DNA from: a virus
DNA length: 22,561 bases
Virus record (IMG/VR): IMGVR_UViG_3300036852_000092
Coordinates: 1-22,561 of that record
Direction: 5' to 3' (one strand)
In this document: positions 2,692-10,316 of the stretch, in pieces
Numbering within the stretch: the stretch's first letter is position 1
Layout of the letters: every line of letters begins with the position of its first letter
Program-made: the position numbers and the translations under genes
The notes under the pieces: model-generated
Databases searched by the model: none
Seen by the model: only the letters and a program-made list of their open reading frames with translations
Told to the model about the DNA's origin: nothing

Positions 2692-2894
2692 CCCGCGATC
2701 TTCCCCTCGCAATCGGGACAGACCACCGAAGCGAGGAACCCACAAGAGAGACACTCGCTTGCGATGACCCAGGCGTCCTCGGTATGGATCGGACAGGTCA
2801 GGAAGTAGATGTCCCCGCCGCAATGTCCACAGCGAACACCCACCTCAAGTGTGTTGTTGTTATCGTCGCCAGCGGGAATCTCAGCCACGTTCAC
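2688..2894 (-). CDS. Small zinc-ribbon protein
   Basis: A 68-residue protein from the GTG at 2892-2894 (or 66 residues from the GTG at 2886-2888). Both starts overlap the end of the upstream gene. After an acidic start come C-G-H-C, T-C-P-I-H, C-L-S-C and C-P-D-C, giving enough ligands for one or two zinc ribbons. The spacing resembles rubredoxin-like or ribbon proteins seen in phage early regions. No enzymatic domain is present. It could mediate protein or nucleic-acid binding. Confidence 0.6.
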   Translation of the reverse strand: MNVAEIPAGDDNNNTLEVGVRCGHCGGDIYFLTCPIHTEDAWVIASECLSCGFLASVVCPDCEGKIAG

Positions 2895-3036
2895 CGTCCC
2901 GCCACGCTGCCGCGACCTTCGTGAGCTGCTCGGTGGTGAACTCAGCCTTACGCCGCGGCACATTGCCAGCAGAGCCACGACCGCCAGCGGCGTGTTCACC
3001 GGAGCTGCCGCCCCGCCAGCAGACCGGGGCGATCAT
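2881..3036 (-). CDS. 51-residue chimeric small protein
   Basis: The ATG at 3034-3036 overlaps the methyltransferase stop (ATGA), and the TGA is at 2881-2883. The protein looks stitched from two others. Its N-terminal part (C-W-R-G-G-S-S-G-E-H-A) resembles the start of the zinc protein at 7549-7761 (C-W-R-C-G-R-S-G-E-H-A). Its last 28 residues, starting G-N-V-P-R-R-K-A-E-F, are identical to the C-terminus of the putative annealing protein at 3934-4941. The second Cys of the knuckle is lost (Gly), so metal binding is doubtful. It may be a decaying hybrid or a real small gene kept for its tail. Confidence 0.5.
   Translation of the reverse strand: MIAPVCWRGGSSGEHAAGGRGSAGNVPRRKAEFTTEQLTKVAAAWRDGERG
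2888..2967. repeat. 80-bp direct repeat, copy 1
   Basis: This segment matches 3941-4020 at 79 of 80 positions by direct reading; the single difference is at 2962 versus 4015. It encodes the last residues of the 51-residue protein. Near-identity including silent positions points to a recent duplication. Confidence 0.9.
2988..3022. repeat. 35-bp repeat shared with 7722-7756
   Basis: 32 of 35 bases match 7722-7756, in the same orientation. Both copies encode the C-W-R-x-G-x-S-G-E-H-A segment of a small gene. Confidence 0.75.
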
Positions 3037-3653: not shown

Positions 3654-3937
3654 GGTTTGTTCCCCATGGCCTTGAGGGCAGCGCGGAGCAAACGCCTTGC
3701 CTTAGCATCTTCGTACGGGTGTCCTACGGCGTATTCCGCCGCCGCGATGAGTTCCTGGATGGCGGGTTCGCGGTCATACCGACCGCCGCACCACGGCCCT
3801 CGGTCAAGGCAGTGTGTGTGGTCCCCACCTACGCAGGCTATGGTGCAATGACTCCCCGAATGACAGCCGCAGCCGCAAGGGTAGTAGGACTGCTTGCATT
3901 GACAGGCGTATCGAGCTAGCACAGCCTCGTACTTCAT
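3650..3937 (-). CDS. Cys/His-rich small protein
   Basis: A 95-residue protein from the ATG at 3935-3937. The first half is crowded with Cys and His: C-Q-C, C-G-C-G-C-H, H-C-T-I-A-C, H-T-H-C and W-C-G-G, with at least nine Cys in about 45 residues, enough for more than one metal site. The second half is a plain helical hairpin (A-I-Q-E-L-I-A-A-A-E, then A-R-R-L-L-R-A-A-L-K). Overlaps on both sides put it in the operon between the annealing protein and the methylase. No known family is recognised. Confidence 0.6.
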   Translation of the reverse strand: MKYEAVLARYACQCKQSYYPCGCGCHSGSHCTIACVGGDHTHCLDRGPWCGGRYDREPAIQELIAAAEYAVGHPYEDAKARRLLRAALKAMGNKP

Positions 3938-4941
3938 CCGCGTTCACCGTCCCGCCACGCTGCCGCGACCTTCGTGAGCTGCTCGGTGGTGAACTCAGCC
4001 TTACGCCGCGGCACGTTGCCGGTGATCCGGTTCTCCTGCCGCAGCTTGCCCGCGAGCTTCACCGCGCCTGATAGCGTCATGTCCTTCGGCGCGCGCGCCC
4101 ATGCCTCGGGCGATGCTGGTGAGGAGTCCCCCGAGTCGCTCGCGGTCGTGACGCCTTCCCCAAACGCCGTCGCGCTCGCGTCACCGAGGGACTCCTCGGT
4201 CCCGACGCCGGAAAGAGAGGTTGAACTGGCGTCGGAAGAATCCGGGCGGGGGCCGCGTTCGCCCGTTCCCATGGAGGTTGGCGGCGTGCCCGCTCCCCCG
4301 CCCTGAAGTTCGTCGCGCATCGCCGTCCAGCGGTCAATCAGCGTGGAGGCATCCTCGCGATTGAGGTGCTTGTATGACTCGACCTTGGCCATCGCATGGC
4401 CTTCGTCGTGGCTCATGCCGATCTCGCGTTCGAGCTGATGCAATAGACCGACTTGCTCGCGCGTGGCCGGTCCTTCCGGGTCGGCGAAATCAAATCCGCT
4501 CAAGACCAGTGCGGCACCGAGGCAGGATCGCAGAGCGTTCCGCATGGCCCTCGTCTGTGCCATAGCTCGGAGTGTGTGATCGTCAGCCTGGCGACGGTTC
4601 CGCTCGCCGCGCGTGCACATCGCCTCGGCCGCGGCCACCTCGTCGCCGTCGCGCGTGCGGACGACAGCCCTTGCCTCCCAACCATCTTCGAGCTTGCGCG
4701 TCCACTCGACGAACGGCACGAGACCGTAGGTCAAGGCCAGCAAACTCCAAGCGGGGAAGCCGAAGAACTCGTGTTGCGAGCCGCCATACCGTTGAACGAA
4801 GCCTCGGTCACGAGCCACGGCGATGACGTCGCGGACGTTCCGTTCGACCTGCTCAAGCATGGCGCGGGTGTCCCCGGTGCCGACGATCTTGTCGAGGGCG
4901 TCGGGCGTGCGGCGCGCGAGGTCAGCGGCGGGCTCAGTCAT
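3934..4941 (-). CDS. Putative single-strand annealing protein / recombination accessory protein
   Basis: A 335-residue protein from the ATG at 4939-4941 (TGATG overlap). Residues 45-160 contain F-F-G-F-P-A-W-S-L-L-A, Y-G-L-V-P-F-V-E-W, L-E-D-G-W-E-A-R and later A-M-A-Q-T-R-A-M-R-N-A-L-R followed by A-L-V-L-S-G-F. The 'Q-T-R-A-x-x-x-A-L-R' core recalls ERF/Rad52-like annealing proteins. Residues 220-290 are a Ser/Gly/Thr-rich disordered linker, and the last 50 are a short helical tail (L-S-G-A-V-K-L-A-G-K-L-R). An annealing protein with a disordered linker near an exonuclease gene is the classic phage recombination pair, so context carries much of the call. The last 28 residues are duplicated at 2881-2967. 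Confidence 0.55.
   Translation of the reverse strand: MTEPAADLARRTPDALDKIVGTGDTRAMLEQVERNVRDVIAVARDRGFVQRYGGSQHEFFGFPAWSLLALTYGLVPFVEWTRKLEDGWEARAVVRTRDGDEVAAAEAMCTRGERNRRQADDHTLRAMAQTRAMRNALRSCLGAALVLSGFDFADPEGPATREQVGLLHQLEREIGMSHDEGHAMAKVESYKHLNREDASTLIDRWTAMRDELQGGGAGTPPTSMGTGERGPRPDSSDASSTSLSGVGTEESLGDASATAFGEGVTTASDSGDSSPASPEAWARAPKDMTLSGAVKLAGKLRQENRITGNVPRRKAEFTTEQLTKVAAAWRDGERG
3941..4020. repeat. 80-bp direct repeat, copy 2
   Basis: This is the partner of 2888-2967 (79 of 80 identical, same orientation). Here it encodes the C-terminus of the putative annealing protein and is probably the parental copy, because the tail continues a longer helical domain. Confidence 0.9.
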
Positions 4942-7761: not shown

Positions 7762-7925
7762 GCCGATGCCTTCTTGACCTGCATGACGGCCCCGCCGTTC
7801 AAGTAGGCCACGCGAGCCGCCGCTACCTGCGGCCACTCATGGTCGGATTCCGGGTGCCACTTGCCGTCCGGGTCGTAGAAGCCGACCGTCCAGAGCCGCC
7901 GCTCGCTGCGGATGTAGACGTACAT
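7758..7925 (-). CDS. Small early protein, function unknown
   Basis: A 55-residue protein from the ATG at 7923-7925, overlapping the Cro-like stop (TGATG). The sequence begins M-Y-V-Y-I-R-S-E, then L-W-T-V-G-F-Y-D-P-D-G-K-W-H-P-E-S-D. This looks like a small beta-meander with a 'Y-D-P-x-G-x-W' turn, followed by a helix (Q-V-A-A-A-R-V-A-Y-L-N-G-G). This pattern occurs in short phage early proteins with no assigned role. Overlaps at both ends support it. Confidence 0.65.
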   Translation of the reverse strand: MYVYIRSERRLWTVGFYDPDGKWHPESDHEWPQVAAARVAYLNGGAVMQVKKASA

Positions 7926-8149
7926 CAAGCGCTCACCTCGTCGGGTTCCTCGGTGAGCAGCGCCGCCAGCTCGTCGAAGTCCATCTCGAGGGCGGCGGCG
8001 AGCTTGCCGATCGTGGTCGCCGTCGGGGTGTTGTAGCCGCGCTCAAGCCGGGTGACGGTCTCGTCGGCCAACCCAGCCTTACGAGCGAGCGCCTGAGCAG
8101 TCAGACCACGCATGGCCCGGAGCTTCGCAAGGGCGGGATAAGTTCTCAC
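7925..8149 (-). CDS. Cro-like XRE-family DNA-binding protein heading the early operon
   Basis: A 74-residue protein from the GTG at 8147-8149. Residues 5-62 are a typical XRE helix-turn-helix: L-R-A-M-R-G-L-T-A-Q-A-L-A, A-G-L-A-D-E-T-V-T-R-L-E-R-G, then I-G-K-L-A-A-A-L-E-M-D. The acidic tail has no dimerisation or protease domain. It is the first gene after a perfect -35 promoter (8150-8186) and diverges from the repressor-integrase pair. That is the usual place of Cro, which would repress the lysogenic promoter. Which of the two XRE proteins is the maintenance repressor cannot be proven from sequence. Confidence 0.8.
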   Translation of the reverse strand: MRTYPALAKLRAMRGLTAQALARKAGLADETVTRLERGYNTPTATTIGKLAAALEMDFDELAALLTEEPDEVSA

Positions 8150-8186
8150 GGATGCGAACCCTACGCTTCCATGCGTGGGATGTCAA
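8150..8186 (-). promoter_or_regulatory. Early leftward promoter, leaderless
   Basis: On the minus strand a consensus TTGACA (8181-8186) is followed by a 17-base spacer and TAGGGT (8158-8163). Only eight bases separate this -10 from the GTG of the Cro-like gene, so transcription should begin at or next to the start codon. No ribosome site fits in that space, which implies a leaderless mRNA. Confidence 0.75.
8159..8179. promoter_or_regulatory. Candidate operator over the early promoter
   Basis: The arms CCCTACGC (8159-8166) and GCGTGGG (8173-8179) pair as an inverted repeat with one bulged base. The dyad covers most of the spacer and the -10 of the early promoter, so a bound XRE protein would block it. 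Confidence 0.45.
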
Positions 8187-8204
8187 CGCACTGGCGCGAA
8201 TGAT

Positions 8205-8233
8205 TTGCGTTCTGCCCAGAAATACGCCAAACT
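8205..8233 (+). promoter_or_regulatory. Candidate rightward repressor promoter with a dyad in its spacer
   Basis: On the plus strand TTGCGT (8205-8210), a 17-base spacer and CAAACT (8228-8233) form a weak promoter ahead of the repressor-integrase genes. The spacer holds a perfect dyad, TTCTG-CC-CAGAA (8210-8221), a possible Cro or repressor site. Confidence 0.35.
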
Positions 8234-8265
8234 CCGTACCCCATTCCCCAGGGAGGGTGAGGACG

Positions 8266-8553
8266 ATGGAGCGACAGGAGTACCGGGCCAGGCTCGCCGC
8301 TCGTCTCCGAGGCGCACGGGCCGAAAGCGGCCTATCTCAGAAGGACGTCGAGCTGGCCACCGGCCTAGACACTTCGCGCTTGTCCAGGATCGAGAAGGGC
8401 GACCGGGCGATTGAGCTGGAAGACCTACTCCTGCTCGCTGGGCTGTACGATGTGCCGTTCGAGCGGTTCCTCGAGGTGGGAGCACCCCTTGGAAATCCGC
8501 CTTCGGCCACGCGGGCGTCGTCCAACAGACAACCCCAAGACCAGGCGGCGTAG
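8266..8553 (+). CDS. Short XRE-family repressor-like protein
   Basis: A 95-residue protein from the ATG at 8266, chosen because GGGAGGG lies eight bases upstream and the in-frame upstream part is intergenic in character. Residues 6-68 are an XRE domain: L-R-G-A-R-A-E-S-G-L-S-Q-K-D-V, then T-G-L-D-T-S-R-L-S-R-I-E-K-G-D-R, then D-L-L-L-L-A-G-L-Y. Residues 72-95 are a disordered tail ending D-Q-A-A. It sits upstream of the integrase on the same strand, where immunity repressors lie. There is no LexA-type peptidase, so induction would not be by self-cleavage. The terminal A-A resembles the end of an ssrA-type degradation tag. Confidence 0.7.
   Translation: MERQEYRARLAARLRGARAESGLSQKDVELATGLDTSRLSRIEKGDRAIELEDLLLLAGLYDVPFERFLEVGAPLGNPPSATRASSNRQPQDQAA
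8493..8510. other. Candidate attP core inside the repressor gene
   Basis: AAATCCGCCTTCGGCCAC reads like the 3' end of a tRNA: the end of a T-loop (AAAT), a T-stem 3' strand (CCGCC), an acceptor 3' strand (TTCGGCC) and discriminator A. The preceding T-stem 5' strand is absent, as expected if only the 3' part is shared with a host tRNA gene. It covers repressor codons 76-82. This is inference; the host sequence is needed. Confidence 0.25.
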
Positions 8554-8577
8554 CCCGCCGAATCGCCCGGTCATCCG

Positions 8578-9510
8578 ATGCGCCTCGTAGTCCCTGCGGC
8601 CGATGCCCCTCTCATGCAGGACCGCACCTTCCCCGCGGTGCTTCATCGCTTCGACCGTCACCTGGATGTCCTCGGACGTGCCGATTCCACCCGCCGGAAG
8701 TACCGCTACGAGCTGCTCTGTTGGTGGGTCGACTATCTGTTCCCCAGCGGGCTCGACGTAGCCGACGTACGCTCCGGTCACGTCGAGGAGTACGTCGGCG
8801 CCCTACCCCGCCACGGGTCCAAGCGGAGCGACGCGCTGCGGGCGCTCCGCGCGTTCATGGCCTGGGCCGTCGTCGAGGGTGAGCTCGACCGCAACCCCGT
8901 CGCCCACATCCCGGTCCCCCGGCCGAAGATCGCACCGGCACCGGACCTGTCCGATGAAGAGATGCGCCGACTGCTCCGTGCGGCCTTCCGCCGGGAGCGT
9001 CGCCGAGGGTGGGCGATCCTGCTCTGCTACGTCACGGGAGCGCGGGTCGGTTCCCTCGTGGCAGCTCGGCCGGCCGACGTCCATCTCGGCGCTGATGCCC
9101 GGCTCGACCTGCTCGAGGCCAAGGGCGGGAAGCCGTACAGCGTGCCGCTCGAGCGCGCCGGGGTGATCGCGGCAGCCCGGCTATTAGATATCTGTTCTAC
9201 ATCTCGTCTCATCGGGGTTGGCGCCGAGCGGTTCCGCCAGTGGGTCCACGCCGCCGAGCAGGAGGCCGGCCTCGGTCGGGTATGGCCGCACCTGCTGCGC
9301 CACGCCTTCCTCACCCGAGTCGCCCATGCCAAGGGCGTCAGCCCCGAGGAGGTGCGGAAGCTGGCAAACTGGTCGGACCTGTCGCAGTGGCCTCGGTACA
9401 TCGCTGCCTCCGACCCCGTTGCACGGCAGGCCATCGGAGCGGTCCTCGGTGGACATGCGAAGGCGCCCGTCCCGACCGAAGGGAGGAAAAACGGTCGAGA
9501 CGGGCGCTAG
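8578..9510 (+). CDS. int: Tyrosine recombinase (phage integrase)
   Basis: A 310-residue protein from the ATG at 8578; a later ATG at 8614 is possible, since neither has a good ribosome site. Residues 18-105 form a SAM-like core-binding domain (S-T-R-R-K-Y-R-Y-E-L-L, then R-A-L-R-A-F-M-A-W-A). The catalytic domain shows R156 in T-G-A-R-V-G-S-L, K182 (or K185) in the beta hairpin, H238-L-L-R241, W265 at the usual second-His position and nucleophile Y274 in W-P-R-Y-I. All five positions are plausible, so it should be active. There is no long arm-binding N-terminal domain, so it is a short, simple type. Codons 202-213 are clearly more AT-rich than the rest. A hairpin covers its last codons. Confidence 0.92.
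   Translation: MRLVVPAADAPLMQDRTFPAVLHRFDRHLDVLGRADSTRRKYRYELLCWWVDYLFPSGLDVADVRSGHVEEYVGALPRHGSKRSDALRALRAFMAWAVVEGELDRNPVAHIPVPRPKIAPAPDLSDEEMRRLLRAAFRRERRRGWAILLCYVTGARVGSLVAARPADVHLGADARLDLLEAKGGKPYSVPLERAGVIAAARLLDICSTSRLIGVGAERFRQWVHAAEQEAGLGRVWPHLLRHAFLTRVAHAKGVSPEEVRKLANWSDLSQWPRYIAASDPVARQAIGAVLGGHAKAPVPTEGRKNGRDGR
9463..9507. terminator. Large inverted repeat at the integrase 3' end, likely bidirectional terminator
   Basis: A 15-base arm GCGCCCGTCCCGACC (9463-9477) pairs with GGTCGAGACGGGCGC (9493-9507), with one mismatch and a 15-base loop. It ends immediately before the integrase TAG. It stands between the rightward lysogeny genes and the leftward lysis genes. No U-tract follows on either strand, so termination is inferred from position and stability. 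Confidence 0.5.
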
Positions 9511-9525
9511 GGCCGACGCGGAGCG

Positions 9526-9717
9526 TCAGCGTTCTTTGAACCAGGTCACCACCGCTGGCAGGGCACCGACGAGCACGACCATCGATGAGACCACGGCCGG
9601 GGGCGGCTCGAGCGAGAACGCCCACAGGGCGACGGTGACCACGGCAGCACCGACCAGGCCGGAGGTCTCGGCAGGACGGCGCTTAACGGTCTCGCGGGTC
9701 TTGGTGACGGGCTTCAT
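9526..9717 (-). CDS. Two-helix membrane protein, holin candidate
   Basis: A 63-residue protein from the ATG at 9715-9717, with GGAGGAGAT directly upstream. A basic start (K-P-V-T-K-T-R-E-T-V-K-R-R) is followed by two hydrophobic segments, G-A-A-V-V-T-V-A-L-W-A-F and V-V-S-S-M-V-V-L-V-G-A-L-P-A-V, separated by a short turn, and a charged end F-K-E-R. Size and topology fit small actinophage holins, and the endolysin is four genes upstream. The other membrane proteins of the cassette are competing candidates. Confidence 0.5.
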   Translation of the reverse strand: MKPVTKTRETVKRRPAETSGLVGAAVVTVALWAFSLEPPPAVVSSMVVLVGALPAVVTWFKER

Positions 9718-9728
9718 ATCTCCTCCGT

Positions 9729-10316
9729 TCAGCATGGCGCCGGCGGGTTGGCCGGCGGCGGTGAGCACGGCGGGAAGGGCACGGTGACGGTGACGACGGT
9801 GGTCTCGGTGGTGATCGGCGGTGGAGTCGTCGGTGTCGGCTCGACCTCCTCGACGATCTCCATCACGGTCATGAGCGACGATCCGAAGGCGCTGGCCATC
9901 TCCGGTTCCTGGCTGCGAAAGGTCTGCTCACATCCCAAGGCGATGTCGCCCGGATCGACGAAGCACTGATCGATGCCCGGCCCCCCGACGACGCGATCCC
10001 CGCCGCGATCATCCACGGCGAACAGCCGATCCCGGCCCTTGCCTCCGGCCACGACATCTCGTCCACCGCCCCCGACCGCGACATCCCGGCCTGCCCCAGC
10101 GCGAAGGATGTCGTTGCCTCCAGCGCCGTGGATGAAGTCGTTGCCCGGTAGGGCACACAGGACGTTCGGACCCTTCGTCCCGGTCTTCACATCACGCTCG
10201 GGAGTCCCGACCCAGGTGCAGCGCCCCGGCGCCCCAGGCGACGGCTCACCACCGGCAGTGACGACGCCGACGAGCGCCACCGTCAGCAGGACGAGAGGGA
10301 TCAGGGCTCGAGACAT
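9729..10316 (-). CDS. Secreted RTX-like calcium-binding repeat protein
   Basis: A 195-residue protein from the ATG at 10314-10316, overlapping the upstream gene by 16 bases. Residues 1-22 are a signal peptide (A-L-I-P-L-V-L-L-T-V-A-L-V-G-V-V-T-A). Residues 57-125 contain about six glycine-Asp nonapeptide units of the type G-N-D-x-I-x-G-x-G-G-N-D, G-x-G-x-D and G-G-D-x-V-x-G-G-P-G-x-D, the RTX beta-roll that binds calcium. The C-terminus is Thr- and Pro-rich and ends with two Cys. Such repeat proteins are secreted proteins in Actinobacteria. In a phage lysis region it could be a lysogenic-conversion factor or part of the lysis machinery. Function is not established. Confidence 0.7.
   Translation of the reverse strand: MSRALIPLVLLTVALVGVVTAGGEPSPGAPGRCTWVGTPERDVKTGTKGPNVLCALPGNDFIHGAGGNDILRAGAGRDVAVGGGGRDVVAGGKGRDRLFAVDDRGGDRVVGGPGIDQCFVDPGDIALGCEQTFRSQEPEMASAFGSSLMTVMEIVEEVEPTPTTPPPITTETTVVTVTVPFPPCSPPPANPPAPC

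Follow-up and report, generated by a model that had tools for sequence, protein, structure and literature searches.

The analysed window (22,561 bases, G000) is a fragment of an uncultured temperate soil phage which encodes terminase, portal, prohead protease, HK97-type capsid, RusA-like endonuclease, exonuclease and MT-A70 methyltransferase, with almost all genes on the minus strand. It carries an HTH repressor gene of 95 aa (8266–8553, plus strand; HTH_3 at residues 14–67, E = 8e-12) and, adjacent and in the same orientation, a tyrosine integrase gene of 310 aa (8578–9510, plus strand; Phage_integrase, E = 1e-11). A Cro-like HTH gene of 74 aa with a GTG start (7925–8149, minus strand; HTH_3, E = 1.3e-13) is divergent to both. 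The first-pass annotation had described this arrangement, which is that of the phages BPs and Brujita, and the domain searches confirmed it. The repressor frame is open from 8152, and the start at 8266 agrees with the relatives and with a promoter-like site upstream. Adjoining the integrase gene, on the minus strand at 9729–10316, lies a phage gene whose product carries calcium-binding nonapeptide repeats of the RTX type (PF00353). Elsewhere, the stretch at about 2881–3000 (2988–3022 region) is repeated at about 3934–4060 (3934–3970), and the protein tail NVPRRKAEFTTEQLTKVAAAWRDGERG is common to two ORFs.

The promoter-like site of the repressor and integrase genes, TTGCGT-17-CAAACT, lies at 8205–8233 on the plus strand and has the same spacing in four related loci (L003, L004, L005 and L007). 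That of the Cro-like gene, TTGACA-17-TAGGGT, lies at 8158–8186 on the minus strand and ends 8 nt before the GTG. The Cro-side pattern was detected in the window, L004, L005, L007, L088 and L089; because its -10-like box is only 7–8 nt ahead of the start codon, this suggests that the message of the Cro-like gene is leaderless in six of the seven phages. A stricter consensus scan listed neither of the two sites in the window, and the consensus at 8205–8233 is weak. Inverted repeats by the Cro-side promoter vary among the relatives, as would be expected if the repressors differed in specificity.

The same cassette was identified in four distinct close relatives (L003, L004/L008, L005 and L007), with repressors 67–86% identical and the Cro-like gene at the same position. 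It is also present in two distant relatives, L088 and L089, at which the HTH genes are strongly diverged and the integrases are about 52% identical to that of the window. Another locus, L002, is almost identical to the window, while L006 starts just before the integrase gene, so that the repressor region falls outside it. Two weak relatives of the repressor (L014 and L015) were rejected, as they belong to unrelated phages in which the cassette is absent.

The structural model of the integrase has a core-binding domain from residue 18 followed by a catalytic domain, with residues 1–13 disordered (mean pLDDT 69.6, which is modest). Structure and sequence searches, including Foldseek, returned XerD and XerA first, with the integrase of Brujita (5vfz) among the significant matches. 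The enzyme therefore looks arm-less, comprising the core-binding and catalytic domains without the N-terminal arm-binding domain. As an arm-less integrase needs little beyond the core site, a site located inside a gene would be easier to use. The integrases of the window and its relatives end in NGRDGR, DPAQGG, VPTP, VQSL or AADR, and none of these is an Ala-Ala end or resembles the C-terminal degradation tag of the known systems. A Pfam scan of the small ORFs in this record, which is a fragment, found no excisionase.

Matches to the exonuclease come almost exclusively from actinobacterial phages, which makes an actinobacterial host probable. Close relatives of the integrase or the portal were not found among 396 actinobacterial genomes, and a prophage search combining an integrase profile with the portal yielded nothing beyond isolated and distant integrases in the actinobacterial sample. 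The closest chromosomal relatives of the integrase are G028:C1:1170057-1170845 (L106, 211 bits) and G283:C142:1247-2053 (L107, 209 bits), both from one 27-genome class of Actinomycetota, which is a candidate for the host lineage. In the few kb fetched around L106 and L107, neither a tRNA nor any clear phage gene was found.

The repressor of the window ends in QDQAA, which bears out the Ala-Ala end noted in the first-pass annotation. The four distinct close relatives end in QAA and L088 in PAA, while L089 ends in GVA; the Ala-Ala end is thus found in the window and five of six relatives, with Val-Ala in the sixth. Of 155 other ORFs in the seven loci that encode at least 100 aa, just 2 have an Ala-Ala end. 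In integration-dependent immunity, the viral repressor carries an ssrA-like end, -LAA or similar (PMC9262239), and the QAA-type ends match this description as far as the sequence goes. We infer that the virion form of the repressor is degraded through its tail (8518–8550, plus strand), which is expected to be lost on integration.

The 3′ portion of the repressor gene contains a conserved block, CCGCCTTCGGCCACGCGGGCGTC (8497–8519, plus strand), which is the candidate attP core. A tRNA-like stretch had been proposed at 8493–8510, behind the HTH domain; that interval indeed lies at codons 76–82, beyond the HTH_3 residues, but the conserved stretch is shifted to 8497–8519. Positions 8497–8503 and 8507–8519 are invariant across five phages. 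In the repressor tail (codons 76–95), one identical codon is kept in these phages at 9 of 12 invariant residues, whereas the HTH part keeps one at only 9 of 38 (Fisher p = 0.002), indicating conservation at synonymous sites. In L088 and L089, 21 of 23 nt are common at the same place in the repressor genes, a level that none of 300 codon shuffles matched, and both blocks have the ACGCGGG centre of the window block at the corresponding place. The sequence common to the window group and the L088/L089 group is approximately TTYRVCYACGCGGGYG. As the core of the window and that of L089, taken alone, match no better than shuffles, the link between the two phage groups rests on position together with sequence.

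There is little room for attP beside the integrase gene. A poorly conserved spacer of 24 bp separates it from the repressor gene, and on its downstream side only 15 bp lie before the end of a convergent gene. Between the convergent genes, a hairpin at 9457–9530 (no strand assigned) is kept in six relatives; its outer arms, AGCGCCC/GGGCGCT, are invariant with varying spacing, its inner stem differs between phages but mostly still pairs, and its loop carries AGGGAGG. This hairpin is probably a two-way terminator that has no T run, rather than attP. Owing to the limited room and to this terminator reading, the block in the repressor is the best attP candidate. It is likely that attP lies inside the repressor gene. 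The position of a core within the repressor reading frame is nevertheless indirect, and attP may be elsewhere in the genome.

In that case the locus would be an ordinary repressor-integrase cassette, with the tail block kept by exchange between relatives or by another cause. No integration junction was seen, and these phages are mosaic, as in L003, which has 67% DNA identity to the window in the HTH part and a near-identical tail (97% at codons 78–88). However, L088 and L089 keep a block at the same place despite their strongly diverged HTH parts, the Ala-Ala end is present in all relatives but one, and the other conserved element near the integrase gene is the one that reads as a terminator. 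We consider an ordinary cassette unlikely, though by no means negligible. Since the close relatives share ancestry, recombination of the segment could account for part of the tail conservation.

Another alternative concerns the host site, as attB could lie on the opposite strand in a tRNA gene of class II (tRNA-Ser or tRNA-Tyr, for example) and correspond to its 5′ half with the acceptor and D arm. On its reverse strand, the core agrees with tRNA-Ser(TGA) of genome G028 at 22 of 27 positions in the window and at 23 of 27 in L083 and L086, and in the tRNA set compared this was the best match for each of the three sequences. Yet other matches were nearly as high, L082, L084, L088 and L089 each had a different best match, and the exact core patterns matched no tRNA in the 396 genomes among the matches read in context. 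This placement of attB is therefore improbable. When the core patterns of both phage families were searched in the 396 actinobacterial genomes and the 27-genome class, there was likewise no tRNA among the matches read in context, and the CCTTYGRCCACGCGGGC pattern was not found more often than its reversed-pattern control. An attB within a protein gene, with the frame F-x-H/Y-A-G running across the core, was tried and rejected, as there was no conserved stop in frame and no single gene recurred.

The block lies just ahead of the integrase gene and is surrounded by CCGCC and GGCGG arms able to pair, as might be expected of an RNA element (an attenuator or a coupling structure) controlling integrase expression. 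This is very improbable, as the consensus fold showed no covariation gain (term +2.72 kcal/mol, with many broken pairs) and no Rfam family came close to its threshold.

The first-pass annotation had also read 8493–8510 as the 3′ end of a tRNA and suggested searching for host tRNA genes ending in this 18-mer. In about 85,000 species genomes the 18-mer has 56 exact copies, none of which is within an ARAGORN-called tRNA. The proposed T-loop part is variable among the close relatives (AAAT, GGAT, TGAT, CGAG and GAAT), including the would-be invariant A58. In the seven phages, neither strand has a TTCRANNC T-arm up to 100 nt from the core; the Brujita control was positive, as its repressor gene carries the T-arm GGTTCGATTCC, and when the Brujita stretch was compared with an unrelated actinobacterial tRNA set, the best matches all fell at that arm. 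Thus, although BPs, Brujita and Bb423phi2 alike use a tRNA 3′ end, integration into a host tRNA gene whose 3′ end is restored by these bases is highly improbable here. The host site is most likely not a tRNA 3′ end; it would be a site of another type or lie in an atypical portion of a tRNA gene.

Brujita integrates without N-terminal integrase domains, arm-type sites or directionality factors, and it uses integration-dependent immunity (PMC7194413, PMC6109161). It resembles G000 in having a small HTH-type repressor gene (gp34) with an Ala-Ala end just before an arm-less tyrosine integrase gene (gp33, PDB 5vfz), the two integrases being similar in fold with low sequence similarity. In contrast to G000, its repressor gene contains a T-arm and its integrase ends in PLSAA. 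BPs (gp32, gp33 and gp34) has a repressor-integrase operon, a divergent Cro-like gene, attP in the repressor gene and a tagged viral repressor (PMC4557955, PMC9262239). G000 shares the gene order and the divergent Cro-like gene, and it has a candidate attP inside the repressor gene and an Ala-Ala end where BPs has its repressor tag. On the other hand, the loss in BPs amounts to 33 residues, its attB is a tRNA-Arg site with a core of 35 bp, and its integrase is tagged, whereas in G000 the tail would be about 10–17 residues, with neither a tRNA 3′ end nor an integrase tag. A similarly short tail is known from the Bifidobacterium prophages Bb423phi2 and 689b-1, whose viral repressor exceeds the prophage form by 18 residues and bears an ssrA-like tag (PMC6109161). 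They differ from G000 in that a tRNA-Met 3′ end serves as attB and the core contains a T-arm.

Taken together, we suggest, with a probability of roughly 0.6, that the cassette functions in the same way as the integration-dependent immunity switch known from BPs and Brujita. The parts observed are the divergent cro-like and repressor-integrase genes with their promoter-like sites, the Ala-Ala end, the integrase with core-binding and catalytic domains only, and the conserved block. In the proposed switch, the block at 8497–8519 would serve as the attP core, and the virion-form repressor would be degraded through its -QAA tail. Integration would separate the codons after about 80–85 from the HTH part, and the prophage would then make a stable, tail-less repressor that could shut off the Cro-side promoter. 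We favour this switch because of the synonymous-site conservation, the block that distant relatives with strongly diverged repressors carry at the corresponding position, the Ala-Ala ends, the arm-less integrase, the little room left for attP and the mechanism known from BPs and Brujita. Counted against it are the untagged integrase, the lack of a tRNA 3′ end in the core, and the fact that no attL, attR or attB was seen in the genomes searched. The main idea of the first-pass annotation, integration-dependent immunity with attP in the repressor gene, is thus likely right, given the conserved block, the Ala-Ala ends and the arm-less integrase, while its tRNA part is likely wrong and the integrase lacks the tag. 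We do not place the cassette in the BPs/Brujita family as now described, because it has neither the tRNA 3′-end site nor the tagged integrase and the position of attP is indirect.

The known integration-dependent switches have been described as always using a tRNA gene, with the integrase kept in check by proteolysis. More tentatively, the G000 cassette may represent an integration-dependent immunity switch whose integrase is arm-less and untagged and whose host site is something other than a tRNA 3′ end (an intergenic site, a protein gene or the 5′ half of a tRNA); the phages would belong to an uncultured bacterial lineage from soil that is probably actinobacterial. If true, a family which keeps the repressor trick while doing without a tRNA 3′ end and an integrase tag would reveal which parts of the switch are essential. 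The untagged integrase would also raise the question of what limits integration. Moreover, a core kept despite strongly diverged repressors would indicate how the end of a repressor gene, otherwise free to evolve, can be constrained by an att site.
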